Source: Rhizobium sp. BG4 (GTDB taxonomy: Bacteria > Pseudomonadota > Alphaproteobacteria > Rhizobiales > Rhizobiaceae). Taken from it: a DNA stretch of 64,000 bases. The notes under the pieces were generated by a model that saw only the letters and a list, made by a program, of their open reading frames with translations, was not told the DNA's origin and did no database searches. Each line of letters opens with the position of its first letter. Within the stretch, counting starts at the first letter, position 1. A program made the translations under genes and the position numbers. The stretch is from the NCBI RefSeq assembly GCF_016864575.1, contig NZ_CP044125.1, forward strand, positions 1,948,501 through 2,012,500, written 5' to 3'. This document shows positions 23,181 through 39,918 of the stretch, piece after piece.

Positions 23181-23182
23181 CG

Positions 23183-23965: not shown

Positions 23966-24535
23966 TCAGTTCTTGGCGCGCTCGACGTAGGAATTGTCTT
24001 CCGTCGCGATGACGACGCGGGTGCCGGCATCGATATGCGGCGGAACCATCGTGCGAACGCCGTTCGAGAGCATTGCCGGCTTGTAGGAAGAAGAAGCCGT
24101 CTGGCCCTTGACGACCGGCTCGGTCTCGGTGATCTCCAGCGTGACGTGACGCGGCAGCTCGAGCGCCAGCGGGATGCCTTCGTGAATCGACAAGATGCAG
24201 GTCATGCCTTCCTGCAGATAGGCCTTCTGGTCACCCATCGTTTCGACATCGACGACGACCTGGTCATAGGTCTGCGGGTTCATGAAGTGGAAGCCTTCGC
24301 CGTCTTCATAGAGGAACTGGAAGTTGACGTCTTCGACGAAAGCGCGCTCGACCTGTTCGGTCGTGCGCCAGCGCTCGGACACCTTCACGCCATCGACGAT
24401 GCGGCGCATGTCAACCTGCGTGACCGGCGTGCCCTTGCCCGGGTGGAAGTTGTTGGCAGTGAGAACGACGTAGAGCTTGCCTTCCACTTCGAGAACGTTG
24501 CCCTTGCGGACGGAGGAGGCGATGACCTTGACCAT
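23966..24535 (-). CDS. efp: Elongation factor P
   Basis: This is a 189-residue EF-P with the KOW-like domain I and two OB domains. It relieves ribosome stalling at polyproline. The modified residue is K34 in HPGKGTPV, the site used for beta-lysylation in bacteria that carry EpmA and EpmB, both encoded immediately divergent. The C-terminus contains the signature [20 protein letters not shown] 24535 is chosen for the AAGGAAG Shine-Dalgarno and because it places Lys at 34; the frame extends to 24736 into the epmA 5' end without family support. Confidence 0.96.
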
Positions 24536-24685
24536 AAGACTTCCTTGTAACTCAGGCTTCGGCGTCGTAGAGGACTGTCGCAATAGCCCCGGAGACGCGA
24601 TTGATTTTCCTTTGGGGCGGCAACTAACGTAAAATCCGGTGAAAAGCCAGCCCTCGCGTTGGTCCTTGCAGTGAAGAAGCGGAGA

Positions 24686-25750
24686 ATGACCCTGACGAGC
24701 GCCAAAGCCTCGCCCTGGTGGACGCCTGATGTTCATGCGGATCGCCGCCCGTTCCTGATCGGGCGCAATGCGATCCAGGCGGCTCTGCGTCTTTACTTTG
24801 CCAAGGAAGACTTCATCGAAGTCGATACATCGGCTCTACAGGTCTCCCCCGGCAACGAGGCGCATCTTCATGCCTTCGCGACCGAAGCGCTGACGACCGA
24901 CGGGCAGTCCGCACCCTTCTATCTGCACACGTCGCCGGAATTCGCCTGCAAGAAGCTGCTCTCGGCCGGCGAGCAGCGCATTGCCTGTTTCGCGCATGTC
25001 TATCGCAACCGCGAGCGCGGGCCGCTGCACCACCCTGAATTCACCATGCTGGAATGGTACCGGGCGGGCGAGAGCTACGAGACGCTGATGATGGACTGCG
25101 TGCGGATGGCCGCACTCGCCGCCGAGACCGTCAAGGCATCCAAGCTCACCTATCGCGGCGCCGAGGCCGATCCCTTTGCCGGGCCGGAACGGATTTCCGT
25201 TGCCGAGGCTTTCGATCGCTACGCCGGCATCGATCTGCTCGCCTCCGTCGCCACCGATGGTTCGACCGATCGCGAGCATCTGGCGGCCGAGTTGCGCCGC
25301 AACGGCCTGCGCGTTGCAGAGGACGATGGCTGGGCCGATCTCTTCAGCCGGGCGCTGGTCGAAAAGATCGAGCCGCATCTCGGCTTCGGCCGCATCACCA
25401 TTCTCGACGAATATCCGGTTTCGGAAGCTGCATTGGCGCGACCCTCGGCCGGCGATCCCAGGGTTGCCGAGCGCTTCGAGGTCTATGCCTGCGGAGTCGA
25501 GCTCGCCAATGGTTTCGGCGAACTGACCAACGCTGCCGAGCAGCGCCGCCGTTTCGAGATCGAGATGGCCGAGAAGGCGCGCATCTATGGCGAGCGCTAT
25601 CCGCTGGACGAGGATTTTCTCGACGCGTTGCAGATCATGCCGGAGGCAAGCGGTATCGCGCTCGGCTTCGACCGGCTGGTGATGCTGGCGACGGGTGCCA
25701 CGCGCATTGATCAGGTGCTCTGGGCGCCTGTCGCGGAGTATGGCCGATGA
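24686..25750 (+). CDS. epmA: EF-P--(R)-beta-lysine ligase EpmA (PoxA/GenX)
   Basis: This is a 354-residue class II lysyl-tRNA synthetase paralogue lacking the N-terminal anticodon-binding domain. It activates (R)-beta-lysine and attaches it to EF-P Lys34. Class II motif 2 is seen in [21 protein letters not shown] (trimmed view: YRNRERG) and motif 3 in [18 protein letters not shown] 24686 ([12 protein letters not shown]) follows GCGGAGA; the frame opens 9 codons earlier. It is divergent from efp and overlaps epmB by 4 bases. Confidence 0.95.
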
Positions 25751-26799
25751 ATATCGTCCGGCCGATCAAGAGCGTCGATGACCTGTCGAGCGCCGGCCTG
25801 ATCGCCGAGGGTGACCGGCTGGCTCTCGAAGAGGTCGCGGCCCGCTATGCGATCGCGCTGACGCCTTCAGTCGCGGCGTTGATCGATCGCGATGATCCGA
25901 CCGATCCGATCGCGCGCCAGTTCGTACCTGTCGGCGACGAACTGCGGATCCTGCCGGAAGAGCGCGCCGACCCGATCGGCGATATCGCGCATAGCCCTGT
26001 CGAAGGCATCGTGCATCGCTATCCAGATCGCGTGCTGTTGAAGGCCGTGCACGTCTGCCCGGTCTATTGCCGCTTCTGCTTCCGCCGCGAGATGGTCGGC
26101 CCTCAGGGGCTGGGCACGCTGGAGCCGGAGGCGATGAAGGCCGCCTTTGATTATATCCGCCTGCACGATGAAATCTGGGAAGTCATTATGACGGGTGGTG
26201 ATCCGCTGATCCTGTCGCCGCGACGCCTCGAAGAGATCATGCGGGAACTGGCGACGATCGATCACGTCAAGATCGTCCGTTTCCATACTCGTGTTCCGGT
26301 GGTTGAGCCGCGCAAGATCGATGCGGCGCTGATTGCGGCGCTGAAGGCCAGCGGCAAGACCGTCTACGTCGCACTGCATGCGAACCACCCCCGTGAATTC
26401 ACCGACGAGGCCCGCGCTGCCTGCGCCCGCCTCGTCGATGCCGGGATCGTCATGATCAGCCAGTCGGTGCTGCTGAAGGGTGTCAACGACGATCCGGCCG
26501 TGCTTGCCGACCTGATGAAGCGGTTCGTCGAGAACCGCATCAAGCCCTACTACCTGCATCATCCGGATCTTGCCCCGGGCACCAGTCATTTCCGGCTGTC
26601 GATCGAAGAAGGGCAGAAGATCGTCGCCGCCTTGCGCGGGCGCATCTCCGGGCTCTGCCAGCCTGCCTATATTCTCGATATCCCCGGCGGTCACGGCAAG
26701 ACGGTGATCTCGGAGAGCGGGTTGCGCAAGACGGCGGACGGCTGCTTTTCGGTCTCCGATTATCGTGGCGGCGAGCACGTCTATCCGCCGGTGGGTTGA
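25747..26799 (+). CDS. epmB: EF-P lysine 2,3-aminomutase EpmB (radical SAM)
   Basis: This is a 350-residue radical-SAM, PLP-dependent enzyme that converts (S)-alpha-lysine to (R)-beta-lysine for EpmA. The iron-sulphur motif is CPVYCRFC (C-x3-C-x2-C). The chain continues with VIMTGGDPLILS and the family PYYLHHPDLAPGTSHF. The C-terminal ISGLCQPAYILDIPGGHGK is typical of the PLP-binding part of lysine aminomutases. Its start overlaps the epmA stop (ATGA). It could be taken for a free lysine 2,3-aminomutase, but the efp/epmA context argues for EpmB. Confidence 0.95.
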   Translation: MNIVRPIKSVDDLSSAGLIAEGDRLALEEVAARYAIALTPSVAALIDRDDPTDPIARQFVPVGDELRILPEERADPIGDIAHSPVEGIVHRYPDRVLLKAVHVCPVYCRFCFRREMVGPQGLGTLEPEAMKAAFDYIRLHDEIWEVIMTGGDPLILSPRRLEEIMRELATIDHVKIVRFHTRVPVVEPRKIDAALIAALKASGKTVYVALHANHPREFTDEARAACARLVDAGIVMISQSVLLKGVNDDPAVLADLMKRFVENRIKPYYLHHPDLAPGTSHFRLSIEEGQKIVAALRGRISGLCQPAYILDIPGGHGKTVISESGLRKTADGCFSVSDYRGGEHVYPPVG

Positions 26800-26863
26800 C
26801 GGTTTTGCGTTTCATTTCTGCACTGCAGGCTTGAACGCCAATTTCGGGTATTTCGGCAGATCG

Positions 26864-26893
26864 TTGCCGCAAATCGCTGAAATCAAATATAAA
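26864..26893 (+). promoter_or_regulatory. Possible sigma-70 promoter of the carrier-protein cluster
   Basis: TTGCCG (26864-26869) and TATAAA (26888-26893) are 18 bases apart inside a 256-base AT-rich gap (26800-27055) between epmB and the carrier-protein gene. The rest of the gap holds no gene I can support. No operator is recognised. Confidence 0.3.
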
Positions 26894-27055
26894 ACATCGA
26901 TCGCTTTCGAATATCCGATAAAACTTTAAGTATGAACCTTGCTCATATTTAACCAGACCAATTAGCGGAATGTTGTTTTTTCCGGCCTAAAAGAACGCTC
27001 ATGATTTAGGCGATGACTGCCTGCTCAGGATCATGACAATCTTGGAGATGCTAGG

Positions 27056-27307
27056 ATGAACACGACAATCCGCGACCTTATAGCCAAGTTCGGCAAGCTT
27101 CCGGTGGCGGTCGACCAGATCGCCGATGATGCCGATCTCTATGCGGCGGGTCTTACGTCCTTCGCCTCCGTGCAGCTGATGCTGGGCATCGAAGAAGCCT
27201 TCGACATCGAGTTCCCCGACAATCTGCTCAACCGCAAATCTTTCGCCAGCATTTCGGCGATCGAGAAGACCGTCGATCAGATCAAGGATAGCCGGAAGGT
27301 CGCCTGA
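27056..27307 (+). CDS. Acyl-carrier-protein-like phosphopantetheine carrier
   Basis: This is an 83-residue four-helix carrier protein. The attachment serine is S35 in the motif GLTSFASV, a divergent form of the usual GxDSL in which Thr replaces Asp and Phe replaces Leu. Acidic helix II follows (MLGIEEAFDIEFPD). It differs from the housekeeping fatty-acid ACP. Its position, overlapping the flavoprotein gene (TGATG) and two genes before an amino acid:[carrier protein] ligase, makes it the likely acceptor of the activated amino acid. Downstream recipients are unknown. Confidence 0.9.
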   Translation: MNTTIRDLIAKFGKLPVAVDQIADDADLYAAGLTSFASVQLMLGIEEAFDIEFPDNLLNRKSFASISAIEKTVDQIKDSRKVA

Positions 27308-28488
27308 TGAACTTCCAGGTCAAGATTGCCGAAGAGAGTTTTGCGGCACGGGCCGCGCGCGTCGCCGAGATCGCTGCCAAGCACGCCGATACGGTCGATG
27401 CGGAAGGCCGCTTCCCGCGCGAAGCTGTCGATGCGATGAAGGCTGAGCGGTTGCTCGGCATCCAGGTCCCCCGCCATCTCGGTGGCGAGGGTGCGACGAC
27501 GACCGAAATCGCCGAACTCTGCTCCATTCTTGGCCAGGCCTGTGCCGCAAGCGCCATGGTCTTCGCCATGCATCACATCAAGCTTTCGAGCCTGGTGGAA
27601 CACGGCACTGAAAGCGAATGGCATGCAGGCTTCATGCAGCGGCTTGCTGCCGAACAGCTGCTGATCGCCTCGGCGACGACGGAAGGCGGCATCGGCGGCA
27701 ACCTGCGCAACAGCATCTGCGCCATCGAGGTCAGCGGCGGCATCTGCCGTCTCGAAAAGGACGCGACCGTCATCTCCTATGGCTCGCATGCCGATGCGAT
27801 CCTGATTACCTCGCGCAGCAATCCGGAAGCCGCTTCCTCCGACCAGGTTCTGACGGCCTTCACCAAAGATCAGTACACGATCGAGCGGACCCATGTCTGG
27901 AACACGCTCGGCATGCGCGGCACCTGCTCGGACGGGTTCCTGTTCAAGGGCGAGGCGCCGGCGGTCCAGATCCTGCCGAAGCCGTTTGCCGAGATCGCGG
28001 CGCAGTCGATGCTTGCCTCCTCGCACCTCCTCTGGAGCGGCGTCTGGTATGGTATCGCCGTCGATGCTGTCTCGCGCGCTCAATCCTTCGTGCGTGCTGC
28101 TGCGCGCAAATCTCCCGGCGCCCCGCCCCCAGGCGCGCTGCGGCTCGCGGAAGTTTCCAACCTTCTGCAGATGGTCAAGTCCAATGTCGTTGCGGGCCTG
28201 AAGGCCTATGAGGACGCCAAGGCCGATCCCGACAAGCTGTCGTCGATGGGCTTTGCCGTTGCCATGAACAACGTGAAGATCGCCTCGTCGGAAACGATCC
28301 TCGAGATCGTCAACCACGTCATGCTGATCTGCGGCATCATGGGCTACAAGAATGGCACGCCCTTCAGCGTCGGCCGCCATCTGCGAGACGCGCATTCCGC
28401 GCAGCTCATGATCTCGAATGACCGCATCCTCGGCAACACGTCGAGCATGCTTCTCGTCCACAAGCAGGACACTAGCCTACTGGGGTGA
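27307..28488 (+). CDS. Acyl-CoA dehydrogenase-like flavoprotein of the carrier-protein cluster
   Basis: This is a 393-residue FAD-dependent member of the acyl-CoA dehydrogenase superfamily: N-terminal helical domain (1-120), beta domain with [17 protein letters not shown] (about 117-230) and C-terminal helical bundle with [20 protein letters not shown]. Its genomic coupling with a carrier protein and an aminoacyl-carrier ligase suggests it oxidises a carrier-tethered aminoacyl group rather than a fatty acyl-CoA, as comparable enzymes do in prolyl- and aminoacyl-carrier chemistry. That substrate is inference. It overlaps the carrier gene by 1 base. Confidence 0.88.
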
Positions 28489-28493
28489 CTCAC

Positions 28494-29402
28494 ATGGATA
28501 TGCAGACCTCGTTTCTGGACCGGCTTTTCGAATCCGGCCTGCTGATCGATACCGGCGTTGATGGTCTTTATGGCCGCAGCGGCCAGTTCGAAGACGTGAT
28601 CACCGCCTTCGAGCGGCTGATCGACAAGTTCGGTGGCGCCGATGGCGCGGAGGCCATGCGCTTTCCGCCGGGTATGAACCGGGCGATCTTCGAAAAGAGT
28701 GGTTACATGAAGAGCTTCCCGCAGCTGGCCGGTACCGTGCACAGCTTCTGCGGTGCCGAGCTCGATCACATGAACCTGCTGCAATGCATGGAAGTCGGCG
28801 ACGACTGGACCAAGGGCCAGGAAGCGACCGAAATCGTGCTGACGCCGGCAGCCTGCTATCCGCTCTATCCGACTGTTGCCAAGCGCGGCAATCTGCCGGC
28901 AAACGGTGGTCTCTACGATCTGCAGTCCTATTGCTTCCGCCATGAACCTTCCAAGGATCCGGCGCGCCAGCAGCTGTTCCGCATGCGCGAATATGTCTGC
29001 ATGGGCACGGAGCAGCACGTGACGGAATTCCGCCAGCGCTGGATGGATCGCGGCGTGGAGATGATGAAGCAGGTCGGCCTCGACGTCGTCATCGATGTCG
29101 CCAACGACCCGTTCTTCGGCCGCGCCGGCAAGATGATGGTCAACAACCAGCGTGACCAGAATCTCAAGTTCGAGCTGCTGATCCCGATCACCTCGACTGC
29201 CAATCCGACGGCCTGCATGAGCTTCAACTATCATCAGGATTCGTTTGGTCTGAAGTGGGGCCTGAACCTCGAAGACGGCAGCGTCGCGCATACGGCCTGC
29301 GTCGGCTTCGGTCTTGAACGCATCGCGCTCGCGCTCTTCCATCACCACGGTCTCGACGTGAAGGAATGGCCCGAAAACGTTCGCAAGGCGCTCTGGGGCT
29401 GA
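28494..29402 (+). CDS. Amino acid:[carrier protein] ligase (SerRS-like class II aaRS paralogue)
   Basis: This is a 302-residue protein with only the class II synthetase catalytic core, related to atypical seryl-tRNA synthetases. Motif 2 lies in [21 protein letters not shown], with a motif-3-like element [12 protein letters not shown] near the end. Cysteines in [10 protein letters not shown] and ACMSF and the motif-2 Glu would be the Cys-Glu-Cys zinc set that recognises the amino group. No tRNA-binding domain is present. Characterised homologues from Bradyrhizobium and Agrobacterium load Gly or Ala onto carrier proteins and do not charge tRNA. ATG 28494 is chosen over the GTG at 28485, which overlaps the preceding stop. 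Confidence 0.9.
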
Positions 29403-29410
29403 GATCTCGG

Positions 29411-30373
29411 ATGAACGCCGTCTTTCCAGCCATCCGTCCCGATGGCTACGCCAGGCATGCGCTCCATTCCAGTGAGCGCATGTGGCCTGAAACCAATTGC
29501 TACATCGATCTCTGGATCGAAGTGCTGAACGCGCTTCGCCTGCCGCCGGAAGCCATGCTCGGCTTCACGATGACGCAGGATTTCGAGGGCGATCAGTTCA
29601 CCTTCTTCAAGGTGCCGCTCGAGGATCTCGAAGCGCTGTTCGGCATCCGCGTCAGCGAGCTGGCGATTTTCGATGCGGTGGAAAGCCATATCCAGACGCA
29701 GATCGGCCGCGGCCGTCTCTGCTTGATCGAGATGGATTCCTATTTCATGCCCGATACGCAGGGCACCGTCTATCGCACCGAACACGGCAAGACGACGGTG
29801 GCGATCAACCGCCTGGACATGGCGGCAAAGCGCGTCGAATACTTCCACAATGCCGGCTTCTTCTCGCTCGAAGGCGAGGATTTCGACGGGCTGTTCCAGC
29901 TGCATCTGACCGAATCCGATGCGCCGTTCCTGCCCTATACGGAATTTGCGAAATTTCCGGCGATGCTTCCCGGCGATGCCGATATCCGCAAGGTTTCCGG
30001 CGAGCTCTTCCGCAAGCATTTTGCGCGCCGCCCTTCCACAAATCCGATCCGGGCCTTCGCTTCGGTTTTCCCGCAGCAGGTCGAGGCGGTTGCCGAGCGT
30101 CCCTTCGGCTTCTTCCACAAATATGCGTTCAACACGTTGCGCCAGTTCGGCGCCAATTTCGAGCTCGCGGCCGATCATCTTGCCTGGCTGGCGCCCGGCC
30201 GCTTCGCCGATGCCGAAGCTAGCGCGCGGCAAATTTCCGAGACTGCAAAATCGGTGCAGTTCCAGCTGGCGCGCGCCGTCATCCGCAAGAAATTCGAGCC
30301 GTTGCAGACCGCGCTTGATCCGGCTGCCGATGCATGGGATTCCATGATGGCTTCGATTTCCGAGCGGTTGTGA
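29411..30373 (+). CDS. DUF1839-family protein linked to the aminoacyl-carrier system
   Basis: This is a 320-residue soluble protein of DUF1839, a family of unknown function that I recall as regularly neighbouring amino acid:[carrier protein] ligases. Visible features are ETNCYIDLWIEVLNALRL near the N-terminus, FTFFKVPLEDLEALFGI, and a conserved-looking MDSYFMPDTQGTVYRTEHGKT with several polar and acidic residues; the first Cys-containing part could recall a transferase active site, but no known catalytic motif is clear. ATG 29411 lies 8 bases after the ligase. The likely role is transfer or processing of the carrier-bound aminoacyl group, by context only. Confidence 0.8.
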   Translation: MNAVFPAIRPDGYARHALHSSERMWPETNCYIDLWIEVLNALRLPPEAMLGFTMTQDFEGDQFTFFKVPLEDLEALFGIRVSELAIFDAVESHIQTQIGRGRLCLIEMDSYFMPDTQGTVYRTEHGKTTVAINRLDMAAKRVEYFHNAGFFSLEGEDFDGLFQLHLTESDAPFLPYTEFAKFPAMLPGDADIRKVSGELFRKHFARRPSTNPIRAFASVFPQQVEAVAERPFGFFHKYAFNTLRQFGANFELAADHLAWLAPGRFADAEASARQISETAKSVQFQLARAVIRKKFEPLQTALDPAADAWDSMMASISERL

Positions 30374-30389
30374 CACCGGAGAGTTGAGC

Positions 30390-32867
30390 ATGCGGGGGAG
30401 GTTGGCAAGCGTCGCGGCAGAGGAAGTTCTGCTTTCGGAAGGATGGAACCTCGTCCTGACCGAACCGGATGCCTATGCGACGCCGCACGATATTCCGCCG
30501 ACATCGCAGTTCATCGCCGCACCCGTGCCGGGTACGGTGGCAGCGGCACTCGAAAAGGCCGGATTGTTCGACCGCGAAAATCCGCAGCCGCTGAACACCC
30601 GCGATGCTTGGTATGTCTGCCGCCTGTTCGATGCCGAGCCGGGCGACTGGGTACTGCGGCTCGAAGGGCTGGCGACGCTCTGCCATGTCTTCGTCAACGG
30701 CAAGGAGATGCTGTTTTCGGAGAGCATGTTCACCGCACACGAGATTCCGGTGACGCTCGCTGGCGGCGATGAGCTCGCGCTTTGCTTCCGCGCCCTGGCG
30801 CCGAAGCTTGCCGAACCCGGACCGCGGGCCCGCTGGCGCCCGCAGATGATCACGCCCCCCGGTCTCAAGAATATCCGCACCACCGTGCTCGGCCACATGC
30901 CGGGCTGGTGCCCTGAAATTCATGCTGTCGGCCCCTGGCGGGCGATTTCGCTGGTGCGCGGCAGCCCGGTCTCGATCGACAATGTCTCGATCCGCGCGGT
31001 TCTCGACGAGGATGGTGCCGGGCGCCTCAGCGTGTCGCTCTATTGCGATGCCGAGGAGCCGGTGCTGCAGCTGCGCTGCGGCGAGCATGAAGCGTCCTTC
31101 GAGAAGGTTGGCGACAACCATTATTCGGCGATCCTGAAGATCCCCGACGTGACGGCCTGGTGGCCGCATACGCATGGCACGCCGCATCTCTACGATCTGA
31201 CGCTTCTCTCCGACGGGATCGCATATCCGCTCGACAAGACCGGTTTCCGGCGGATCGAGCTGGATCGGGGTGTCGATGGCGATGGTTTTGGTCTTGTCAT
31301 CAACGGCGAGCGGGTGTTCTGCCGCGGGGCGGTCTGGACGACGGCCGATATCGTGCGGCTGCCTGGAGATCGCAGCGCCTACGAGCCGTTCCTGCGGCTT
31401 GCGGCGGAAGCCGGTATGAACATGATCCGCATCGGCGGCACGATGGCCTACGAGACGCCGGAGTTTTTCGCGCTGTGCGACGAGCTCGGCCTGCTCGTCT
31501 GGCAGGACTTCATGTTCGCCAATTTCGACTATCCGCGAAACGACAAGGCTTTTGCCGGTCATGTCCATACCGAGGTCGAAGGCTTCCTGCATGGCGTTCA
31601 GGCGTCGCCGTCGCTTGCCGTGCTCTGCGGCGGCAGCGAGGTGCACCAGCAGGCGGCAATGCTCGGCCTGCCGCGCGAATTCTGGGGCGGCCCTTTCACC
31701 GACGAGGTGATTCCAGCGATTGCTTCCCGCCTGCGGCCCGATGTGCCCTATGTGCCGAACTCTCCCTATGGCGGCGCGATGCCGTTTTCGCCGAATGCAG
31801 GGGTGACCCACTATTACGGTGTCGGCGCCTATATGCGCCCGCTTGAGGACGCGCGTCGGGCGGATGTGCGTTTTGCCGCCGAGAGCCTCGCCTTCGGACA
31901 TGTTCCGCAGCAATCGACGCTGCAGCGGCATCTCGATGTTCCCGCCGTCCATAGCCCGCTCTGGAAGGCGCGAGTGCCCCGCGATCGCGGCGCTTCCTGG
32001 GATTTCGAGGATGTCCGTGATTTCTATCTCGGCCTTCTCTACGACACTGACCCGGCAAGCCTTCGCCGCGAGAACCCGGAGCGCTATCTCGAGCTCTCCC
32101 GCGCCGTCACGGGAGAGGTGCTGACCGAGACCTTTGCCGAATGGCGCCGCACCGGTTCGCGCTGCGACGGTGCGCTTGTCTGGACACTGCAGGACCTGCT
32201 CCCCGGCCCGGGCTGGGGCGTGATCGATTCCACGGGTGAGCCCAAGCCGGTCTGGCATGCGATGCGCCGTGCCTTCCAGCCGCTGCAGGTGCTGCTGACC
32301 GACGAAGGCACCAACGGGCTCGACATTCACGTCGTCAACGAGACGGCGGACGATCTAGCGGCCGAGCTCGAGATCATCTGCTTCCGTGACGGCCGGCAGC
32401 AGGCGGCGAGCGGTAGCCACAGCCTGGCGCTTGCTGCGCGCAGCAAACAGAAGATCGCCGCGACCGAGCTTTTCGGCGCATTCTTCGACACGACCTACGC
32501 CTTCCGCTTTGGGCCGCCGTCGCATGACGTCACGGTCGCGCGGCTTCGCTCCGTCGATGGCGAATTGCTGGGCGAAGCGTTTCATTTCCCGCTCGGGCGC
32601 GCCAAGGCCTGCCATGACGCCAGCATCGACGTCAGGCTCGTCGAGGATGCCGGTCATTGGGCCGTTGATCTGACGACCGATCGCTTTGCGCAGTCGGTGC
32701 ATGTCGAAGCTGCCGGTTACCGTCCGTCGGACGACTGGTTCCATCTCGCGCCGGGCATCCAGCGGCGCATTCGTTTGACGCCGATGACGGCAGACGCGGG
32801 CGAGCCTCAGGGCGAGGTGCTCTGCGCTGGAAACATGCGCCGGTTTGCCTTCAGCGCCGGTGGTTAA
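30390..32867 (+). CDS. Glycoside hydrolase family 2 protein (beta-mannosidase-like)
   Basis: This 825-residue protein has the GH2 layout: N-terminal sugar-binding jelly roll (about 15-190), immunoglobulin-like domain (about 200-290), catalytic barrel (about 295-640) and C-terminal beta domains. The acid/base Glu is probably that in CGGSEVHQQ and the nucleophile that in VRFAAESLAFG, positions matching exo-beta-mannosidases. It lacks a signal peptide, so it should act in the cytoplasm. It sits 16 bases after the DUF1839 gene and 7 before a glycosyltransferase, tying glycan chemistry to the carrier-protein operon. ATG 30390 is chosen over TTG 30384. The natural substrate is unknown. Confidence 0.85.
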   Translation: MRGRLASVAAEEVLLSEGWNLVLTEPDAYATPHDIPPTSQFIAAPVPGTVAAALEKAGLFDRENPQPLNTRDAWYVCRLFDAEPGDWVLRLEGLATLCHVFVNGKEMLFSESMFTAHEIPVTLAGGDELALCFRALAPKLAEPGPRARWRPQMITPPGLKNIRTTVLGHMPGWCPEIHAVGPWRAISLVRGSPVSIDNVSIRAVLDEDGAGRLSVSLYCDAEEPVLQLRCGEHEASFEKVGDNHYSAILKIPDVTAWWPHTHGTPHLYDLTLLSDGIAYPLDKTGFRRIELDRGVDGDGFGLVINGERVFCRGAVWTTADIVRLPGDRSAYEPFLRLAAEAGMNMIRIGGTMAYETPEFFALCDELGLLVWQDFMFANFDYPRNDKAFAGHVHTEVEGFLHGVQASPSLAVLCGGSEVHQQAAMLGLPREFWGGPFTDEVIPAIASRLRPDVPYVPNSPYGGAMPFSPNAGVTHYYGVGAYMRPLEDARRADVRFAAESLAFGHVPQQSTLQRHLDVPAVHSPLWKARVPRDRGASWDFEDVRDFYLGLLYDTDPASLRRENPERYLELSRAVTGEVLTETFAEWRRTGSRCDGALVWTLQDLLPGPGWGVIDSTGEPKPVWHAMRRAFQPLQVLLTDEGTNGLDIHVVNETADDLAAELEIICFRDGRQQAASGSHSLALAARSKQKIAATELFGAFFDTTYAFRFGPPSHDVTVARLRSVDGELLGEAFHFPLGRAKACHDASIDVRLVEDAGHWAVDLTTDRFAQSVHVEAAGYRPSDDWFHLAPGIQRRIRLTPMTADAGEPQGEVLCAGNMRRFAFSAGG

Positions 32868-32874
32868 GGACAAG

Positions 32875-34056
32875 ATGTCGATCCGATCGCTTTACCGTGC
32901 CTTTCGCTCCCATGTTCTGCAGCGGCTGATCCCGAAATCGCGTGTTGCGTTCGATCCGGCGCGTCCGGTCGAAGTCGCCGGTTATCTCTCGATGATGGCA
33001 GGTGTGGGCGAATCGGCGCGGCTCTGTGCCGACGCCCTCGTCTCGGCGGGACGGACGATTTCGCTGCGCGATGTCAGCACGCATGCTGGCGAGGGATCGT
33101 CGGTCGAGTGGACGGCGGCTGCGCAGTCTTCGGCGAAGCCCGGCACCCGCATCTGGCACCTCAATCCGCCGATGCTGCCGCGCGCCGTGCTCAGCACCGG
33201 TCTCGGCGAATTCGCGCGTGCTTACAATATCGGCTATTGGGCCTGGGAGTTGGAAGTCGTTCCCGCCGAATGGCGCAATGGTGCGCGCTATGTGAATGCC
33301 GTCTTCGTACCCTCCGAATTCACCCGCAAGGCGATCGCGCCGTTGACGTCGGCGCCCGTTATCGTCGTGCCGCATCCGGTGACAGAGAAGCCCGCTGCCG
33401 ACGGCATGCGCGCAAAGTTCGGGATCGAGGACGATGCCTTCCTCGTCAGCTTCATCTTCAGCGCGGGATCGTCTATCAACCGGAAGAACCCGCAGGCGGT
33501 GATTGACGCCTTCAAGATTTTCCAGGCGCGCTGCCCGAAGGCATTCCTGCTGATGAAGGGCAGTGGCGATCCGGCGAAGGATGCCGGATTGGCCGCGCTT
33601 TATCGCTCCGCCGAGGGCAATAGCCGGATTCGGATCGTCACCGACAAGCTGGCAAGCAGCGAGATCAACGGACTGATCCGCGATTCCGACGCCTACATCT
33701 CGCTGCACCGCTCGGAAGGCTTCGGTCTCACCGTTGCCGAGGCGATCATCCACAATACGCCTGTCGTGAGCACGGGCTGGTCGGGCACGGTGGATTTCTG
33801 CGATCCGAACAACACCTGGAACGTCGCGCCGTCGCTGATCTCCGTCGTCGATACGCATCCGGAATTTGCGGCACTTGACGGTGCGGTCTGGGCCGATCCA
33901 TCGCCTGAAATCGCCGCCGGATATCTGGCAGAAATCCATGCCGATCCGGAAGCCGCCAAGGCGAAAGCGGCGCGGGCGAAGCGTTTCCTGATCGCCTATC
34001 TCGAGGCCAATACCTACGAGAAAGCGCTGCAAACACTGGCGAGCGCTGACCGTTAA
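32875..34056 (+). CDS. Glycosyltransferase, GT4 family
   Basis: This is a 393-residue GT-B fold retaining glycosyltransferase. The donor-binding domain shows FIFSAGSSINRKNPQAVIDAF and the E-x7-E motif SEGFGLTVAEAI. The acceptor-side half includes GYWAWELEVVPAEW, typical of rhizobial polysaccharide transferases. There is no membrane segment apart from a basic N-terminus that might associate peripherally. ATG 32875 follows AAGGACAAG; the frame opens earlier inside the GH2 gene. It probably builds the glycan moved by the flippase encoded next. Donor and acceptor sugars are unknown. Confidence 0.88.
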   Translation: MSIRSLYRAFRSHVLQRLIPKSRVAFDPARPVEVAGYLSMMAGVGESARLCADALVSAGRTISLRDVSTHAGEGSSVEWTAAAQSSAKPGTRIWHLNPPMLPRAVLSTGLGEFARAYNIGYWAWELEVVPAEWRNGARYVNAVFVPSEFTRKAIAPLTSAPVIVVPHPVTEKPAADGMRAKFGIEDDAFLVSFIFSAGSSINRKNPQAVIDAFKIFQARCPKAFLLMKGSGDPAKDAGLAALYRSAEGNSRIRIVTDKLASSEINGLIRDSDAYISLHRSEGFGLTVAEAIIHNTPVVSTGWSGTVDFCDPNNTWNVAPSLISVVDTHPEFAALDGAVWADPSPEIAAGYLAEIHADPEAAKAKAARAKRFLIAYLEANTYEKALQTLASADR

Positions 34057-34125
34057 CCGAAAACTTCGGGCCTTATTTAACGGTTTCACTTTAGGAATGG
34101 CTGAGAAAGCAACGGAACGGGACTG

Positions 34126-37100
34126 ATGTCGAACGGGATCATAGCAAACTCGGTGATGAACGCTGCGGCCGGCATGCTGCTGCTTGCCACCGGCTTCGCC
34201 TCGTCGATCATCACCGCGCGCCTGCTCGGCCCCGAGGCGAACGGCATCGTCGCCTTCTCGCTGTGGCTCGTCGTCACCGGCGCTTCGATTGCCGAACTTG
34301 GCTCCAGCATCACGCTGCTGAAAACCCTGCCGCAGCTCAGCGCTCAGGGTTATGACAGCAGGAGGCGCATGGGCTTTGCGTCGATCCTCGTCACCTTCAT
34401 GGTATTCTCGACGGTGGTGCTGCTCGGGCTCTACGCGATCTTCTTCCTGTCGTCGGAGGAGATGCATTGGGCCGAAACCGCGCCGTCAGTGGCACTCGTT
34501 ACCGGCGCGCTGTTCTTCATTCAGGCGATCGGCTCCTTCGTCAAATTCTACCTGATCGGCGAAAAGCGGCTCGGAGACTTCTTCAAGCTGACGGTTGGCG
34601 TGTCGATCCTGCAGCTCGGCGGTGTTGCCATTGGTGCCGTCCTGCATGGCGTCGAGGGGGTGCTGATCGGTTATGCGCTCGGCCAGCTGGTGTTCTTCGT
34701 CGCGACCATGCCGATCCTCTTCGCCAAGCGGGACAAATGCGGTATCGCCTTCGGTGCGCTGGCCTCGTCCTCGGTGATCATCTCGACGCAGTTCCTGATC
34801 GATTCCGTCTTCATCAATCGCCTCGAACTGCTGTTCCTGCAGCAGTTCTGGTCGGTGGAGATGGTCGGCTATTATGCGATCGGCCTGTCGGTCGCCAATA
34901 TCGCCCTGCAGCTGCCGATCCAGATGACCGGGAGCTTGTTGCCCTATTATTCCGAGCAGCGCCACAGCAGCAAGGATGCCACGCTTCCCGTCGAAGTCTT
35001 CGCCGCCGTCACTCGCAGCATGGCCTATATCATCCTGCCGATGAGCTTCGGGCTTGCCGCCATCTCGGGCGTGCTCGTCGTCAGTGTCTTCGGTGAGGCC
35101 TTCCGCCCGAGTGGTCCCGTCGTCATGCTGCTGGCGCTCGCCGCACCCGCCTACACCTTCATGCAGATCCTCAGCCTCTACCTCCTGTCGATGGACCGGG
35201 TGCGCGATCGCCTGAAGACCAGTGTGATTGGTGGCCTTGTGATGGTAGGCGGTTGTTTACTCCTGGTGCCTAGTTTTGCGGCGGAAGGTGCGGCACTCGT
35301 TCGCATCGGCGTTTTTGTCGTGATGTGCGTGATCATGATCAAACAGACCGGATTTGGCAGTCAGCTGTCGACCCTCTATGTCAGCCTCGCGAAGGTGACG
35401 GCTGCCGCAGTCCTCTGCGCACTGGCAGCGCTTGCCGTGCTTGAGGTCTTCCATAATCCAGTTGGGCTCGTCCTCGCGATAATCGCCGGTGGCATTGCCT
35501 ATCTGCTGGCGCTGAAATTCCTCAAGGTCATTCCGCGGCAGGATGCGCTGGTCATCCGCTCGATCCTCGGCAAGGTTCCCTGGGCATTGCGTGGCCCCGC
35601 GCTGAAGGCCGCACAGTTCATCGCGCCGCTGCCACCTGAAAAGGACGGCGAAGCTTCTGACGCAGCGGTTCAGGAGCCCGCGGAAGGTGCCGGCCGCAGC
35701 GCTGCATTTCCGGTTGCCTTCGACGGAACGATCGGGCTTTTCATGCCTGAGAATCCTGCCGTCACCAAGCGTTCTTCGGCGGTGCTCTTCGTCAGCCCCT
35801 GGGGCTTCGAGGAAATGTGCAGCCGCAAGTTTTATCGCGTGGCCGCCGAGCATCTTTCGGATATCGGCGTTCCCAGCCTGCGTTTCGACTATCTCGGCAC
35901 CGGCGATGCGCTCGATTTCGGCAGCGAGCCGGCGACGCTGGCAAGCTGGGAGAAATCGATCCGTGCAGCCGCCGAAGAGCTGAAGTCGCTCAGCGGCTGC
36001 GACCAGATCATTCTGGCAGCTCAGGGCATCGGCGCAGCACTCGTGCAGCGCATCGGCGCGACGATACCCGGTGTCAGTGGCGTCGCGCTTCTGGCTCCCG
36101 TATTGAGCGGCCGCGGGTATCTCCGCGAACTCAACATGTGGGCGAAGATCATTCACGCCGATCTCGGCCTCAGCAAGGAACATGCGCCTGCCGACCAGGT
36201 GACGATCGCCGGTCTATTCATGCCGGAAGCGATCGCCGCCGAAATCCGCAAGCTCAATCTGAGCACTCCGGAAAGCATTGCTGCTGCCAAGTATGTTCTC
36301 TTCGAACATCCGTCGCGCGCCGGCGATTCCGCCTTTGCCGAAGCCTTGCGGGCCCTTGGCGCCAGCGTCGATGAGAAGGTGTTCGAAGGCTACGAGGAAC
36401 TGGCGACCAATCCGCTGTTTGCCAAGACGCCGATGGCCGTCGTCGCGGAGCTTGCCCGCTGGATCGAAGCGAACACCGTTCCCGATGCCACTGCAGCCAA
36501 CTCGGTCGTTCCAGCCGAAAACCAGATCCTGCGCGGTGACGGTTTCGAGGAGATACCGGTTCGCTTTGGTGATCATCATCATCTCGTCGGCGTTCTCAGC
36601 CGCCCGATCGGTGAGTCCCAGGGCAATTCGGTGATGTTCCTGACCACCGCCTATGACCGTCATGCCGGCTGGGGCCGGACGATCGTCGATATGGCGCGTG
36701 ATCTCGCCCGCCAGGGTGTCACGTCGCTGCGCTTCGATTCAGCCAATGTCGGCGACAGCGTTCCGCGCCCGGATGCGCCCGATCAGATTCTCTATTCAGC
36801 CACCCAGATCGAAGACGCCGTCTCGGCGCTCGATCTTCTGGAGGCGCATGTGCCGGGGCCGGTCATGGTCGCCGGGCGCTGCAGCGGCGGCTATGTCGCT
36901 TTCCGCGCCGGGATTGCCGACGAGCGCCTGAAGGCCGTCGTCTCGATCAATCCCTTCGTCTATTACTGGGATCCGGCGGTCCAGGTTGCCAAGGAGCACG
37001 TCGTTTCGGTGCCGCGCAGCGTCGATGACTACAGCCAGCGCCTGATGAATATCGAAACGCTGAAACGGCTGTTCCGCGGCCAGGTCGACGTGAAGGCCGC

Positions 37101-37431
37101 GTTCCAGAATTTCTTCATCGCCGTCGGCCGCCGCGTCTCCTACCGCTTCGCGCCGCTGATCGAGCTTCTGCCGCACAAGGGTCATGTCGCCCGCGAGGTG
37201 AAGCATGCCTTTGCCTCCTTCGGTAAGCGTAATGTGCCGCTGACGCTGATCTACAGCGAAGCCGATGTCGGCCTCGATCACATGTATTTCCACTTCGGCC
37301 CGGGTGGCCGCAAGCTGCAGCGCTATCCGAATGTGCGCCTCGTCATGCTTCAGGACGCCGACCATAACCTGACGCCGCTGGAATCGCGCCGGATCGTTCT
37401 GGAAGAGATCGCCAAGCTGGCGAAGGCTTAA
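34126..37431 (+). CDS. Flippase fused to two alpha/beta-hydrolase-like domains
   Basis: This is a 1101-residue three-part protein. Residues about 1-495 are a polysaccharide flippase of the MOP superfamily, with about 14 membrane segments. A charged, Pro/Ala/Glu-rich linker (500-527) follows. Hydrolase-like domain 1 (about 527-788) has AQGIG where G-x-S-x-G is expected, so Gly634 takes the nucleophile place. Domain 2 (about 799-1101) has GRCSGG with Cys919 there, and keeps a plausible acid (YSEADVG) and His (DADHN). The pair recalls the two exosortase-associated hydrolase types. It probably exports and modifies a lipid-linked glycan. It follows the glycosyltransferase by 69 bases and converges on another, sharing TTAA stops. 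Confidence 0.85.
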   Translation: MSNGIIANSVMNAAAGMLLLATGFASSIITARLLGPEANGIVAFSLWLVVTGASIAELGSSITLLKTLPQLSAQGYDSRRRMGFASILVTFMVFSTVVLLGLYAIFFLSSEEMHWAETAPSVALVTGALFFIQAIGSFVKFYLIGEKRLGDFFKLTVGVSILQLGGVAIGAVLHGVEGVLIGYALGQLVFFVATMPILFAKRDKCGIAFGALASSSVIISTQFLIDSVFINRLELLFLQQFWSVEMVGYYAIGLSVANIALQLPIQMTGSLLPYYSEQRHSSKDATLPVEVFAAVTRSMAYIILPMSFGLAAISGVLVVSVFGEAFRPSGPVVMLLALAAPAYTFMQILSLYLLSMDRVRDRLKTSVIGGLVMVGGCLLLVPSFAAEGAALVRIGVFVVMCVIMIKQTGFGSQLSTLYVSLAKVTAAAVLCALAALAVLEVFHNPVGLVLAIIAGGIAYLLALKFLKVIPRQDALVIRSILGKVPWALRGPALKAAQFIAPLPPEKDGEASDAAVQEPAEGAGRSAAFPVAFDGTIGLFMPENPAVTKRSSAVLFVSPWGFEEMCSRKFYRVAAEHLSDIGVPSLRFDYLGTGDALDFGSEPATLASWEKSIRAAAEELKSLSGCDQIILAAQGIGAALVQRIGATIPGVSGVALLAPVLSGRGYLRELNMWAKIIHADLGLSKEHAPADQVTIAGLFMPEAIAAEIRKLNLSTPESIAAAKYVLFEHPSRAGDSAFAEALRALGASVDEKVFEGYEELATNPLFAKTPMAVVAELARWIEANTVPDATAANSVVPAENQILRGDGFEEIPVRFGDHHHLVGVLSRPIGESQGNSVMFLTTAYDRHAGWGRTIVDMARDLARQGVTSLRFDSANVGDSVPRPDAPDQILYSATQIEDAVSALDLLEAHVPGPVMVAGRCSGGYVAFRAGIADERLKAVVSINPFVYYWDPAVQVAKEHVVSVPRSVDDYSQRLMNIETLKRLFRGQVDVKAAFQNFFIAVGRRVSYRFAPLIELLPHKGHVAREVKHAFASFGKRNVPLTLIYSEADVGLDHMYFHFGPGGRKLQRYPNVRLVMLQDADHNLTPLESRRIVLEEIAKLAKA

Positions 37432-38585
37432 GCGCTGGCTTTGAAAGCCGGGATGCCGAGCGACCGGTAGAGCTCGATATAGAGCCCGGCGACATGATCC
37501 CAGGAATAGGGGCGGGCTGCCGCTATCAACGCTTCACGCATGGCCGTCGGGTTTGCAGAGATCGCATCGAATGCCGCGCCGATCGCATCGGCTGCTGTCC
37601 CGGCGTCGCTGAAATCCGTGATCGTCACCGGTGCCTGACGCTCCGCGAGGGCGCGGTAGGCTGCATTGCCGTTTAGAACGGGATAGAGCCCGGCGCTCAT
37701 GGCCTCTAGTGCGACGAGGCCGAAGCCTTCGTATTCCGAGGCGGAGGCGAAGAGCGAGGCACCCGAGACCAGTGCCCGGATGGCCTCGTTGTCGATGCCG
37801 ACATGCAGGCCGACCGATTGGTCGAGATTGCGCGCGGTGATTTCGGCGCGCAGATCGCCGGCCTTGAGATCGGATTCCGAGCCGACGATATCGAGATGCC
37901 AGGACGTGTCGCGGCCCGTCAGCACCCGCATGGCGTCGAGGAGATGATCCAGACGCTTGTTTACCGAGAAGCGGCCGATGGTGACGATCCGGCGAAGCGG
38001 GGTGCGCGATGCGCTATCGGCGAACTTGCCGATATCGACGCCGTTCTCGATCAGCACCGTATTCGGGGCGATCTGCGAGAACTGGGCGATATCCGAGGTG
38101 CTGCAGCCGATGACACGGCGGTAATTCATCGCCGACAGCCGCGTCAGCGTCTGGAACCAGACCTTCTTCAGTGCGGCGTATTTCTGCGTATGGAAGAAGC
38201 CGCCATGGGTGGTCACCACCATCGGCTTTCGATGCAGGATCCGGCCGATCGCCAGCGCATCGAAGAAGAAGTCGATGGCGTGAACATGCACGAGATCGGC
38301 ATCGCCGAGATGGCGGAAGACCTGTGGGGCGATCGGGTAGCGCGTGCTGCCGGACCAGGGAATGCGGACGACCTCGATACCGTCGATGGTTTCGCGCGGC
38401 GGCAGCTTGCGGTCGCGGGCGGTAAAGAGCGTATCGAGCGTTACGACGCGGACGCGGAAGCTGCGTCTTGCGGTTTCACGCGCCAGATTGGCGACGACGT
38501 CTTCGAGGCCGCCGCGGTTCGGCAGGAACTGGCGCACGACATGGACGATCAGCGGCGCGTTTGTCCTCTGCGCATTCGTGGTCAT
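37428..38585 (-). CDS. Glycosyltransferase, GT4 family (convergent)
   Basis: This is a 385-residue GT-B glycosyltransferase. The N-terminal domain opens IVHVVRQFLPNRGGLEDVVANLA, a standard GT4 loop, with VVTTHGGFFHT further in. The donor domain has IGRFSVNKRLDHLLDAM and the E-x7-E element SEYEGFGLVALEAM. It is transcribed against the flippase fusion gene and overlaps its stop (TTAA). Sequence similarity to exopolysaccharide transferases plus position suggests it serves the same glycan. ATG 38585 (MTTNAQRTNAP) is the most likely start; the frame extends to 38684. Confidence 0.85.
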   Translation of the reverse strand: MTTNAQRTNAPLIVHVVRQFLPNRGGLEDVVANLARETARRSFRVRVVTLDTLFTARDRKLPPRETIDGIEVVRIPWSGSTRYPIAPQVFRHLGDADLVHVHAIDFFFDALAIGRILHRKPMVVTTHGGFFHTQKYAALKKVWFQTLTRLSAMNYRRVIGCSTSDIAQFSQIAPNTVLIENGVDIGKFADSASRTPLRRIVTIGRFSVNKRLDHLLDAMRVLTGRDTSWHLDIVGSESDLKAGDLRAEITARNLDQSVGLHVGIDNEAIRALVSGASLFASASEYEGFGLVALEAMSAGLYPVLNGNAAYRALAERQAPVTITDFSDAGTAADAIGAAFDAISANPTAMREALIAAARPYSWDHVAGLYIELYRSLGIPAFKASA

Positions 38586-38723
38586 GCCTGCCGTTACTTC
38601 CAAAGCAATACTCCTGACCCGCGCGGCCGTACAGCCGGACGAAATACCCGATCGCCTTAAAGCCGGGTTTACGGTGCTGCGCACGGCTGGAAATCTTGCG
38701 AAGACGGTTAATCGCCGGACGGC

Positions 38724-38960
38724 TCAGAAAGCCTTGAAAGTCAGTGTCGTCAGCGAACGGACGATGCCCGGGATATTGGCGATGTTGTCGTTGATGAACT
38801 TGCCGATATCCTGGCCTTCTTCGATATAGACCTTCAGCAGCAGATCGTAATCGCCGCTGGTCGAATAGAGCTCAGAAACACGTTCCGTCTGGTAGATGGC
38901 GTCGGCGACTTCGTAGGTCTTGCCGGGGGCGCACTGGAGCTGGACGAAAATGGGCTTCAT
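38724..38960 (-). CDS. Stand-alone Lrp/AsnC ligand-binding (RAM) domain protein
   Basis: This is a 78-residue protein comprising only the RAM domain (regulation of amino acid metabolism) of Lrp/AsnC regulators, MKPIFVQLQCAPGKTYEVA...SGDYDLLLKVYIEEG. The DNA-binding HTH is absent, and the length shows this is a complete gene rather than a fragment: it has its own start after GGAAAGTC. Such stand-alone RAM proteins form amino-acid-binding oligomers and may modulate full-length Lrp proteins. It lies downstream of the LysR gene on the same strand, next to an amino-acid catabolic operon. Confidence 0.88.
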   Translation of the reverse strand: MKPIFVQLQCAPGKTYEVADAIYQTERVSELYSTSGDYDLLLKVYIEEGQDIGKFINDNIANIPGIVRSLTTLTFKAF

Positions 38961-39027
38961 GGGACTTTCCTGCGGATCGGATGCTGTTGGCGCGCATAAT
39001 GCGCGAAAGCTCTCCCTGGATGCAAGC

Positions 39028-39918
39028 TCAAGACTTGGCTTCTGCCTCTATCCACTCGCGAAAGGCGGCAAGCGGGGCGTAATCGGCGCGTTCGGAGGGG
39101 TAGGCGAGATAGTAGCAGTCGCGGCTTTCGATCTCCCGGTCGATCGCGGCGACGAGATCTCCGCGCTTCAGTTCGTCCTGGATCAGGAAGGTCGGCAGCA
39201 AGGCGACGCCGAGGCCGGCGACGGCAGCCTGTGCTGCGGTGGCGAACTGGTCGAACAGCATGCCGTGAAGGCTCTGGAAGGCGACGCCGTTTTCGGCAAA
39301 CCAGATCTCCCAGGCGTCCGGCCGCGTCGTCAGATGCAGTAGCGGCAGGTCCAGCAGGTCCTCCGGCTTGCTGATCGCATGCTCCCTCAGGAACTGCGGG
39401 CTGCAGGCCGGAACCGTCTTCTCCGACATCAGAAAGGTCAGCTCGGCACCCGGCCAGTGCGGGTGACCGAAATGGATCGCGGCATCGATGGCATCGAGGC
39501 GGAAATCGAAGGAGGAGAGCCGGGTAACGAGATTGATCGTGACGCCCGGATTTTTGCGCAGGAAGCCTCCCAACCGCGGCGCCAGCCAGCGCGTGCCGAA
39601 GGTCGGCAGGATCGCCAGATTGAGCGTGCCGCCATGCGGGTTGGCCCGGAGGTTCAAAGAGGCGCTGGAAATGCGGCGCAACGCTTCCCGGATTTCTCGC
39701 GCGTAGCTGTCTCCTGCCAAGGTCAGCCTGACGGTCTGGCGTTCGCGCAGGAACAGTTCGACGCCGAGCTGTTCTTCGAGCGCCTTGATCTGCCGGCTGA
39801 CGGCGCTCTGGGTGAGGTCCAGCTCGCGAGCTGCGGCGGTGACGCTGCCGGTGCGTGCCACCGCTTCGAAGGCGGCAAGCAGGGAGATCGATGGCAGAAA
39901 ACGGCGTGATGCGAGCAT
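39028..39918 (-). CDS. LysR-family regulator divergent from the pipecolate-type operon
   Basis: This is a 296-residue LysR regulator of the GcvA-like group. The HTH lies at about 18-45 (GSVTAAARELDLTQSAVSRQI) and the ligand-binding domain at about 95-290 with VAGLGVALLPTFLIQDEL. It diverges from the amaA-like oxidase gene, and a TTC-N7-GAA palindrome of LysR type lies 5 bases upstream of its own start, so autoregulation and activation of the divergent operon are likely. The inducer is probably lysine-derived, by context. Confidence 0.88.
   Translation of the reverse strand: MLASRRFLPSISLLAAFEAVARTGSVTAAARELDLTQSAVSRQIKALEEQLGVELFLRERQTVRLTLAGDSYAREIREALRRISSASLNLRANPHGGTLNLAILPTFGTRWLAPRLGGFLRKNPGVTINLVTRLSSFDFRLDAIDAAIHFGHPHWPGAELTFLMSEKTVPACSPQFLREHAISKPEDLLDLPLLHLTTRPDAWEIWFAENGVAFQSLHGMLFDQFATAAQAAVAGLGVALLPTFLIQDELKRGDLVAAIDREIESRDCYYLAYPSERADYAPLAAFREWIEAEAKS

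Follow-up and report, generated by a model that had tools for sequence, protein, structure and literature searches.

The locus

The stretch of DNA analyzed here, which we call the window, comprises 64,000 nucleotides from Rhizobium sp. BG4 (positions 1948501-2012500 on a 4.02 Mb contig, in a genome of 6.42 Mb on three contigs). From 27056 to 37431 it carries, all on the plus strand, genes for an aminoacyl carrier protein, an acyl-CoA-dehydrogenase-like flavoprotein, an amino acid ligase, a DUF1839 protein, a GH2 glycosidase, a GT4 glycosyltransferase, and a flippase fused to hydrolases; the genome has one DUF1839 match and one ligase match. An earlier, sequence-only reading had proposed that the activated amino acid decorates a lipid-linked or surface glycan. 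Pfam and NCBIfam matches place all eight genes where that reading put them, including the GT4 gene that converges at the end of the block on the minus strand, and the gaps of 16, 7, and 69 bases that it gave are correct given ATG starts at 30390, 32875, and 34126. The features, in window coordinates, are:

27056..27307, plus strand: aminoacyl carrier protein, 83 amino acids, phosphopantetheine site Ser35 (PF00550; NF005480 at 127 bits, cut-off 72)
27307..28488, plus strand: acyl-CoA-dehydrogenase-fold flavoprotein, proposed to act on the aminoacyl group as a flavin oxygenase or oxidase (PF02771, PF00441)
28485..29402, plus strand: amino acid--[acyl-carrier-protein] ligase, SerRS-like (NF005479 at 520 bits, cut-off 357)
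29366..30373, plus strand: DUF1839 protein, papain-like, proposed aminoacyl transferase (PF08893 at 443 bits, gathering cut-off 22.5); residue numbering for its Cys30 starts at 29411
30390..32867, plus strand: GH2 beta-mannosidase-like glycosidase (PF22666, PF17753; PDB 5N6U, E 3.5e-50)
32875..34056, plus strand: GT4 glycosyltransferase, a variable partner (PF00534)
34126..35595, plus strand: MOP-superfamily flippase domain of the fusion, end approximate (PF13440, residues 30-329)
35713..37431, plus strand: two alpha/beta hydrolase domains of the fusion, with Cys919, Asp1047, and His1080 in the second (PF12146)
37428..38585, minus strand: convergent GT4 glycosyltransferase (PF00534, PF13439; start at 38585 from the gene call)

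A conserved five-gene core

Locus counts show the four amino acid genes and the glycosidase to be one conserved unit. We counted 125 loci, comprising the window, 29 other loci from the family, 80 Rhizobium loci, and 15 from searches of the class and phylum. The Rhizobium set is the best 80 of 551 relatives, all titled Rhizobium or Rhizobiales, and among these 80 the closest species-named relatives of the window DUF1839 protein are Rhizobium; the class and phylum set includes one same-genus locus (L083) and one same-family locus (L084). The sets overlap (L034/L166, L044/L105, L083/L135), and the short loci L001-L030 and L060-L075, which duplicate longer stretches, were excluded from the counts of residues, spacing, and order. 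Gene calls over the 125 loci gave 121 carriers, 122 flavoproteins, 123 ligases, 126 DUF1839 proteins (two in L082), and 122 GH2 proteins.

The order carrier, flavoprotein, ligase, DUF1839, GH2 on one strand is found in 29/29 of the other family loci, 78/80 of the Rhizobium loci, and 13/15 of the class and phylum loci, the last figure counting L082, where the module is in order by coordinates (the automated count, oriented by a second DUF1839 gene, was 12/15). The Rhizobium exceptions are L092, truncated at a contig end, and L128, with a broken ligase; the others are L076, which lacks GH2, and L080, the solitary second DUF1839 gene of the genome that holds L081. In L056, the GH2 gene is truncated by the contig end. 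Median intergenic distances along the five genes are -1, 4, -10, and 28 bases, and GH2 starts no more than 100 bases after DUF1839 in 105/121. DUF1839 is present in 29/151 family genomes, and the ligase is found above its cut-off in exactly those 29, with weaker ligase matches in three further family genomes that have no DUF1839.

That the first five genes hold their order across family, Rhizobium, and class and phylum loci argues that the set is not a chance assembly, and that GH2 belongs to the amino acid module; its earlier placement at the start of a separate assembly block was not borne out. Genomes in which the two blocks are never adjacent would, by its own account, have refuted the sequence-only reading, but this is not what the loci show: a module DUF1839 gene is followed by GH2 in all 125 loci counted except L076, the solitary second DUF1839 genes being L080 and one of the two L082 copies. 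What follows GH2 is more varied. The next query gene in the 80 Rhizobium loci is GT4 in 33, flippase in 17, a LysR-type gene in 6, hydrolase in 5, and none in 19, and a convergent GT4 gene lies on the strand opposite the module in 53/80.

Terminator-like sites in 26700-38800 of the window number 8, compared with 9.6 expected from shuffles; of the five on the plus strand, the sole intergenic one is a 5-pair stem at 34057-34069, between the GT4 and flippase-hydrolase genes. A promoter scan gave 3 sites vs 2.6 expected.

Several flanking features and gene fragments were also seen. The genes for EF-P (minus strand), epmA, and epmB lie at 23966-26799, directly upstream of the module, so that two tRNA-synthetase paralogues are neighbors; they stand beside the module in 78/80 Rhizobium loci and 9/29 family loci. 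After the convergent GT4 gene, the minus strand at 38724-39918 carries a gene for a 78-amino-acid Lrp/AsnC-type protein and a LysR-type gene (both named after the annotation of the relative L176), and genes of both types are found repeatedly across the Rhizobium loci. In Rhizobium leguminosarum Vaf-46 (L128:4081-6068), the ligase is present only from residue 143 and is followed by DUF1839 and the start of GH2, with no carrier or flavoprotein, and the plasmid record NZ_CP018229 has a similar ligase piece, from residue 140.

Glycan genes near the module

Glycan-assembly genes lie near the module more often than expected by chance. Pfam models were run over the 29 family genomes, with expectations taken from genome-wide match numbers, and the results are not corrected for relatedness. 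A PF13440 flippase lies within 10 kb of DUF1839 in 14/29 genomes vs 0.41 expected (101 PF13440 matches in the 29 genomes), or in 12/26 vs 0.37 expected after removal of the window genome and two same-genus genomes; a PF13439 GT4 lies within 10 kb in at least 12/29 vs 1.2 expected. We rely on this whole-genome test over two tests against control stretches, which comprise 40 stretches at hand-chosen round coordinates from 24 of the 28 other genomes, five family loci being shorter than the controls. With queries partly from the loci themselves, any assembly gene is found in 15/29 family loci vs 3/40 controls (P 5e-5), a contrast inflated by the origin of those queries; the second test, with queries from outside the family, is taken up below. 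The hydrolase pair is found in 21/29 family loci vs 0/40 controls with either query set.

The link between module and glycan-assembly genes drawn in the sequence-only reading is upheld as to enrichment, but the glycosyltransferases and flippase vary from locus to locus and no flippase is near in about half of the family genomes. Since some replicons in addition carry the module nearly alone, the module is autonomous. As a separate observation, GH5 cellulase-like genes recur near the module (L171:34572-35924; L035:16480-17571), in 9/29 family loci vs 0/40 controls when the query was taken from one of these nine, and in none with a Burkholderia query.

Properties of the encoded proteins

The carrier is closest in the PDB to 4H2W chain C (E 2.6e-36) and to Atu2571, 2JQ4 (E 2.8e-36), and its phosphopantetheine serine, Ser35, is kept in 121/121. 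The ligase matches 4H2W (E 5.7e-96) and 3MEY (E 3.1e-91) and passes the curated cut-off of NF005479 with a carrier partner that retains the serine. In studies of relatives of the ligase, the amino acid was reportedly glycine or alanine.

The flavoprotein is harder to place. Acyl-CoA dehydrogenases are its first PDB matches with a profile, whereas DnmZ, a nitrososynthase, and 3M9V, the N-oxygenase KijD3, come first with a single sequence. The catalytic base positions of SCAD and IVD presumably correspond to flavoprotein residues 369 and 236-241. At these two places, the flavoproteins carry Ile or Val and Ser, Ala, or Cys, with no acid at 236-241 or 369 in 122/122, and Ile/Val369 aligns with a Glu of 3PFD. 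On this ground we set aside a classical acyl-CoA dehydrogenase, although the argument is weakened by 7P98, which is named a dehydrogenase and has Thr there. The missing base acids are in line with the monooxygenation suggested in 2010 (PMC2922099).

No relative of solved structure came up with a sequence profile of DUF1839 (best E 0.33). An AF2 model of the protein (pLDDT 87.7) was matched in a fold search by 14 rows at Z 16.9-18.1, all of them CtaG, CcbD, or AziU2/U3, with the next row at Z 7.7; 273-288 residues are aligned, at a root-mean-square deviation of 3.8-4.1. CcbD accepts carrier-bound proline on a Cys and passes it to a thiooctose amine through a Cys-His-Glu triad (PMC12945683), and in 2015 LmbD and CcbD were described as without recognized relatives (PMC4351081). 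Cys30 of DUF1839 is present in 124/126 proteins, and His125 and His146 in 126/126. CtaG and AziU2/U3 also serve antibiotic pathways. The two exceptions to Cys30 are the operon copies of L081 and L082 (Arg or Gln), and each of these genomes has a second DUF1839 protein that retains the Cys (L080, L082). The paired copies are at L082:7401-8381 and L082:12232-13299 and at L081:9435-10421 and L080:88-1125, and Cupriavidus metallidurans L221 also has two DUF1839 copies. In PMC10318531 (2023), DUF1839 is placed among the papain-like proteins, with a suggested part in processing glycans at the cell wall; from the model, we propose that it may be an aminoacyl transferase.

GH2 is nearest to beta-mannosidases in a PDB search, and no signal peptide was seen by eye. 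Glu413 and Glu494 (numbered from 30402), whose roles are presumably acid/base and nucleophile, are present in 121/121 and align with Glu in 2VJX. The second domain of the hydrolase pair has a Cys-Asp-His triad (Cys 86/86, Asp 84/86, His 86/86), and the nucleophile place of the first domain is Gly or Arg in 82/86. An AF2 model of the pair (pLDDT 89.1) mostly matches common esterase-type alpha/beta hydrolases, and two lower-ranked fold matches are enzymes that use other nucleophiles. Exosortase A hydrolases 1 and 2 were considered and rejected, with TIGR03100 at 77 vs 168 bits and TIGR03101 at 65 vs 203 bits, both below cut-off; they are still the nearest named relatives.

The module in Burkholderia, Cupriavidus, and other hosts

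A tblastn search of plasmid records with the ligase matched 60 records, including Burkholderia, Cupriavidus, Caballeronia, and Mycetohabitans, and in Burkholderia and Cupriavidus the module is embedded in exopolysaccharide loci. B. cenocepacia CMCC(B)23006 has a sugar phosphotransferase gene and a CRP-type gene on one strand; on the opposite strand are another CRP-type gene and the five-gene module. These are followed by a convergent sigma-54 activator gene, a gene for a 219-amino-acid protein to which Pfam gave no match, and then by ManC, two GT4, Wzc, flippase, and GT4 genes (regulator and phosphotransferase families were assigned from scanned homologues). The order from the phosphotransferase to ManC is common to B. 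cenocepacia, B. multivorans, B. arboris, B. stagnalis, and L087, with Wzx in reach in B. cenocepacia, B. multivorans, and B. stagnalis.

This arrangement can be mapped onto the locus for the exopolysaccharide Bep. According to PMC3584217, PMC9684580, and PMC5552954, the Bep cluster BCAM1330-1341 adjoins berB and berA and includes a TIGR03100 hydrolase, a flippase, and GT4 proteins; BCAM1340 is ManC, BCAM1341 a predicted acyltransferase, BCAM1342 the sigma-54-dependent berB, and BCAM1349 the CRP/FNR-type berA. Six locus numbers fall between 1342 and 1349, and the stretch from the outer CRP-type gene to the sigma-54 gene likewise encloses six genes (one of CRP type plus those for carrier, flavoprotein, ligase, DUF1839, and GH2). 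Judged by the order and number of genes, and not by J2315 or H111 sequence, the Burkholderia module lies between the cyclic di-GMP (c-di-GMP) regulators berA and berB. Beyond ManC, the order of assembly genes in CMCC(B)23006 differs from the J2315 table. In the one open-access library searched, we found nothing on BCAM1343-1348 or the H111 tags I35_5194-5199, and queries on the Agrobacterium genes, bll0957, and the ligase name gave no further lead; as far as these searches reach, the link to Bep is unpublished.

In Cupriavidus metallidurans CH34 and in L082, the module directly follows a priming transferase gene and precedes CRP, ManC, Wzc, and hydrolase genes, and L081 has this order as far as CRP, where the stretch ends. 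In the window, no CRP-type or sigma-54 regulator was found with Pfam among the 18 proteins scanned between 20998 and 44013. Shinella has genes for GumC, an O-antigen ligase, and a cellulase 6-10 kb upstream of the module; its gene table, like those of the Azospirillum, Mycetohabitans, Phyllobacterium, and Caballeronia records, is incomplete. Parts of the module also occur in other company. A Priestia plasmid (L173:10151-18698) has acpS, carrier, flavoprotein, and ligase genes with an ATP-grasp gene, an alanine permease, and an alanine racemase, near comX, and a Tsukamurella plasmid (L174:8740-17327) has ligase and carrier genes with a phosphopantetheinyl transferase, glycosyltransferases, and a polyprenyl glycosylphosphotransferase, and no annotated DUF1839.

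Proposed function and alternatives

We lean toward interpreting the five genes as a portable module that carries out aminoacylation in the cytoplasm and is tied to exopolysaccharide synthesis, and infer that its amino acid is transferred to a glycan. By homology, which supports this step well, the SerRS-like ligase would adenylate a small amino acid, reportedly glycine or alanine, and load it onto the carrier. The flavoprotein may then oxygenate or oxidize the loaded aminoacyl group, and the Cys of DUF1839, to judge from its fold, could accept this group and hand it to a sugar in the manner of CcbD. GH2 might trim or edit the sugar intermediate, and the Cys-nucleophile hydrolase, fused here to the flippase, might perform a second acyl transfer or proofread at export, while the neighboring GT4 and flippase genes would build and export the glycan.

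The acceptor atom would be an amine by the precedent of CcbD, or a hydroxyl should a neutral polymer like Bep be the target. According to PMC7084887, Bep is composed of galactose, glucose, galactose, and mannose and contains no amine; 0.3 M NaOH was used for its extraction and NaOD for the measurements. A module acting on Bep should form an ester, whereas an amide would place the target elsewhere. Esters would probably not survive NaOH extraction, and an ester-linked amino acid on Bep would therefore have been missed. In its fullest form this would be a base-labile ester decoration of neutral biofilm exopolysaccharide in Rhizobium, Burkholderia, Cupriavidus, and Azospirillum, in which the ligase loads glycine or alanine, the flavoprotein oxygenates it, and the CcbD-fold transferase esterifies the polymer before export, under c-di-GMP control at least in Burkholderia. 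We regard this specific scheme as speculative and unlikely.

Several observations weigh against tying the module to an exopolysaccharide in these ways. The absence of an amino sugar from Bep conflicts with an amide unless another molecule is the acceptor. Against oxygenation or oxidation by the flavoprotein, its best solved profile matches are the dehydrogenases 9W60 and 7P98, the latter also without Glu at the aligned place. Cys30 and His125 are no more than candidates for the positions of the CcbD triad. In 15/29 family genomes there is no PF13440 flippase within 10 kb, the neighborhood tests carry no correction for relatedness, and with single queries from outside the family, assembly genes are found in 7/29 loci vs 3/40 controls (P 0.08), although this last test is insensitive, since it found no flippase where Pfam finds one. 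Among the records with incomplete gene tables, Azospirillum has the five genes and the hydrolase with no glycan cluster seen (one has a Crp/Fnr gene upstream), Mycetohabitans has the five genes and the hydrolase with only genes resembling ArnT and LTA synthase at a greater distance, Phyllobacterium has the five genes and a convergent hydrolase with no glycan cluster seen, and Caballeronia grimmiae has the five genes alone, its pelF and pelG lying over 11 kb away. On the Priestia plasmid, the genes for carrier, flavoprotein, and ligase belong to a non-glycan cluster that lacks both DUF1839 and GH2.

Some of these points would fit a different product. The module may make a small soluble metabolite, such as an aminoacyl sugar or a modified amino acid amide, and adjoin exopolysaccharide genes through shared biofilm-type control. 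The three-gene Priestia cluster and the replicons that carry the module nearly alone favor such a product, as do the antibiotic pathways of CtaG and AziU2/U3. CcbD itself works in an antibiotic pathway (PMC12945683). GH2 in every module but L076, the hydrolase and flippase as frequent neighbors, the fusion of hydrolase domains to a flippase in the window, and the embedding in Burkholderia and Cupriavidus exopolysaccharide loci speak against it, and we consider it rather doubtful. A little less doubtful is an amide to an amino sugar of lipopolysaccharide (LPS) or another surface glycan, in place of a neutral Bep-type polymer; it is a narrower form of the explanation we prefer, and the probabilities of the two overlap. 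The 2010 note in proof of PMC2922099 predicted such a transfer, CcbD forms an amide on a sugar amine (PMC12945683), and the window has SIS-domain and NagA-like genes at 20998-23911, NagA being by name a breakdown enzyme; yet no amino-sugar biosynthesis gene was recognized among the proteins scanned, and the Burkholderia module sits in the regulator interval of Bep, for which PMC7084887 reports only galactose, glucose, and mannose.

Two other explanations seem improbable. Papain-like proteins (as DUF1839 is classed in PMC10318531) and alpha/beta hydrolase folds are often hydrolases, so DUF1839 and the Cys hydrolase could unload a mischarged carrier or deacylate a glycan as a recycling or editing system; but an operon with its own ATP-using ligase would seem wasteful for hydrolysis, and the fold match of DUF1839 extends over nearly the whole protein and takes in CcbD, which is a known synthetase. 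We consider this explanation quite unlikely. Least probable in our view is an accidental neighborhood, in which the amino acid module and the GT4 and flippase genes are functionally unrelated. It would account for the presence of the GT4 gene at 32875 in only 33/80 Rhizobium loci, for the family hydrolase and flippase being often convergent, not co-directional, outside the genus, and for the P of 0.08 with outside queries, but it sits poorly with flippases within 10 kb in 14/29 genomes (12/26 without the window's own and same-genus genomes) against 0.41 expected across the 29, and with the hydrolase in 21/29 loci and no control.

Comparison with known systems

The function of carrier-protein ligases derived from aminoacyl-tRNA synthetases has been an open question since 2010 in the literature examined. 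A direct test of composition becomes possible with the operon located in a biofilm exopolysaccharide locus whose polymer is known and with DUF1839 matched to CcbD; if the proposed decoration is real, the charge and solubility of such matrices would have been misread.

The idea that an amino acid decorates a surface glycan, with a lipid-linked or other sugar as the putative acceptor, gains from the conserved module and the glycan genes enriched nearby, and its core has been in print since 2010. The note in proof of PMC2922099 described the neighborhood and expected the DUF1839 protein to transfer an amino acid to a sugar of the cell surface. The neighborhood of PMC2922099 and PMC10318531 is the one seen here, with a carrier, a redox enzyme, a conserved protein, a glycosidase, and liposaccharide genes and a predicted surface-sugar transfer; with both papers already in print, the proposal of the sequence-only reading is mostly a rediscovery. 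New here, and all computational, are the counted core, the Cys hydrolase partner, the fold match of DUF1839 to CcbD, CtaG, and AziU, and the link to the Bep locus.

The ligase and carrier resemble Bll0957-type ligases (285 residues, E 5.7e-96) and Atu2571-type carriers (82 residues, E 2.8e-36). The original studies of Bll0957 and Atu2571 are said to stop at the loaded carrier. The Bep locus (BCAM1330-1341, berB 1342, berA 1349) resembles the window in having the five-gene module, there placed between the regulators by order and count, and a cluster with a TIGR03100 hydrolase, GT4 proteins, and a flippase, and differs in its regulators, the window having no CRP or sigma-54 regulator among the genes scanned. 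Teichoic acid D-alanylation (Dlt), the parallel first suggested, and LPS glycination (Alm) likewise carry an amino acid on a carrier for a surface glycan (PMC3783018), but use another ligase family, whereas transfer by the module is proposed to involve a Cys enzyme. A Dlt or Alm homologue was rejected, with no Pfam match to MBOAT, DltD, an AMP-forming Alm ligase, or LPLAT among the 18 window proteins at 20998-44013, and the lack of MBOAT, DltD, and LPLAT matches in the module proteins argues against transfer of either type. The parallel with D-alanylation is not supported, and a better one is offered by CcbD, an amide synthetase that works through a Cys and has a sugar amine as its acceptor. 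DUF1839 shares the fold of CcbD and LmbD over 282-288 residues (Z 17.5-18.1) at 9-10% identity, and CcbD, too, passes a carrier-bound amino acid to a sugar amine; CcbD is fed by an adenylation domain (PMC4351081) and its product is an antibiotic, whereas the module has its own SerRS-like ligase and, as we read it, probably serves an exopolysaccharide.

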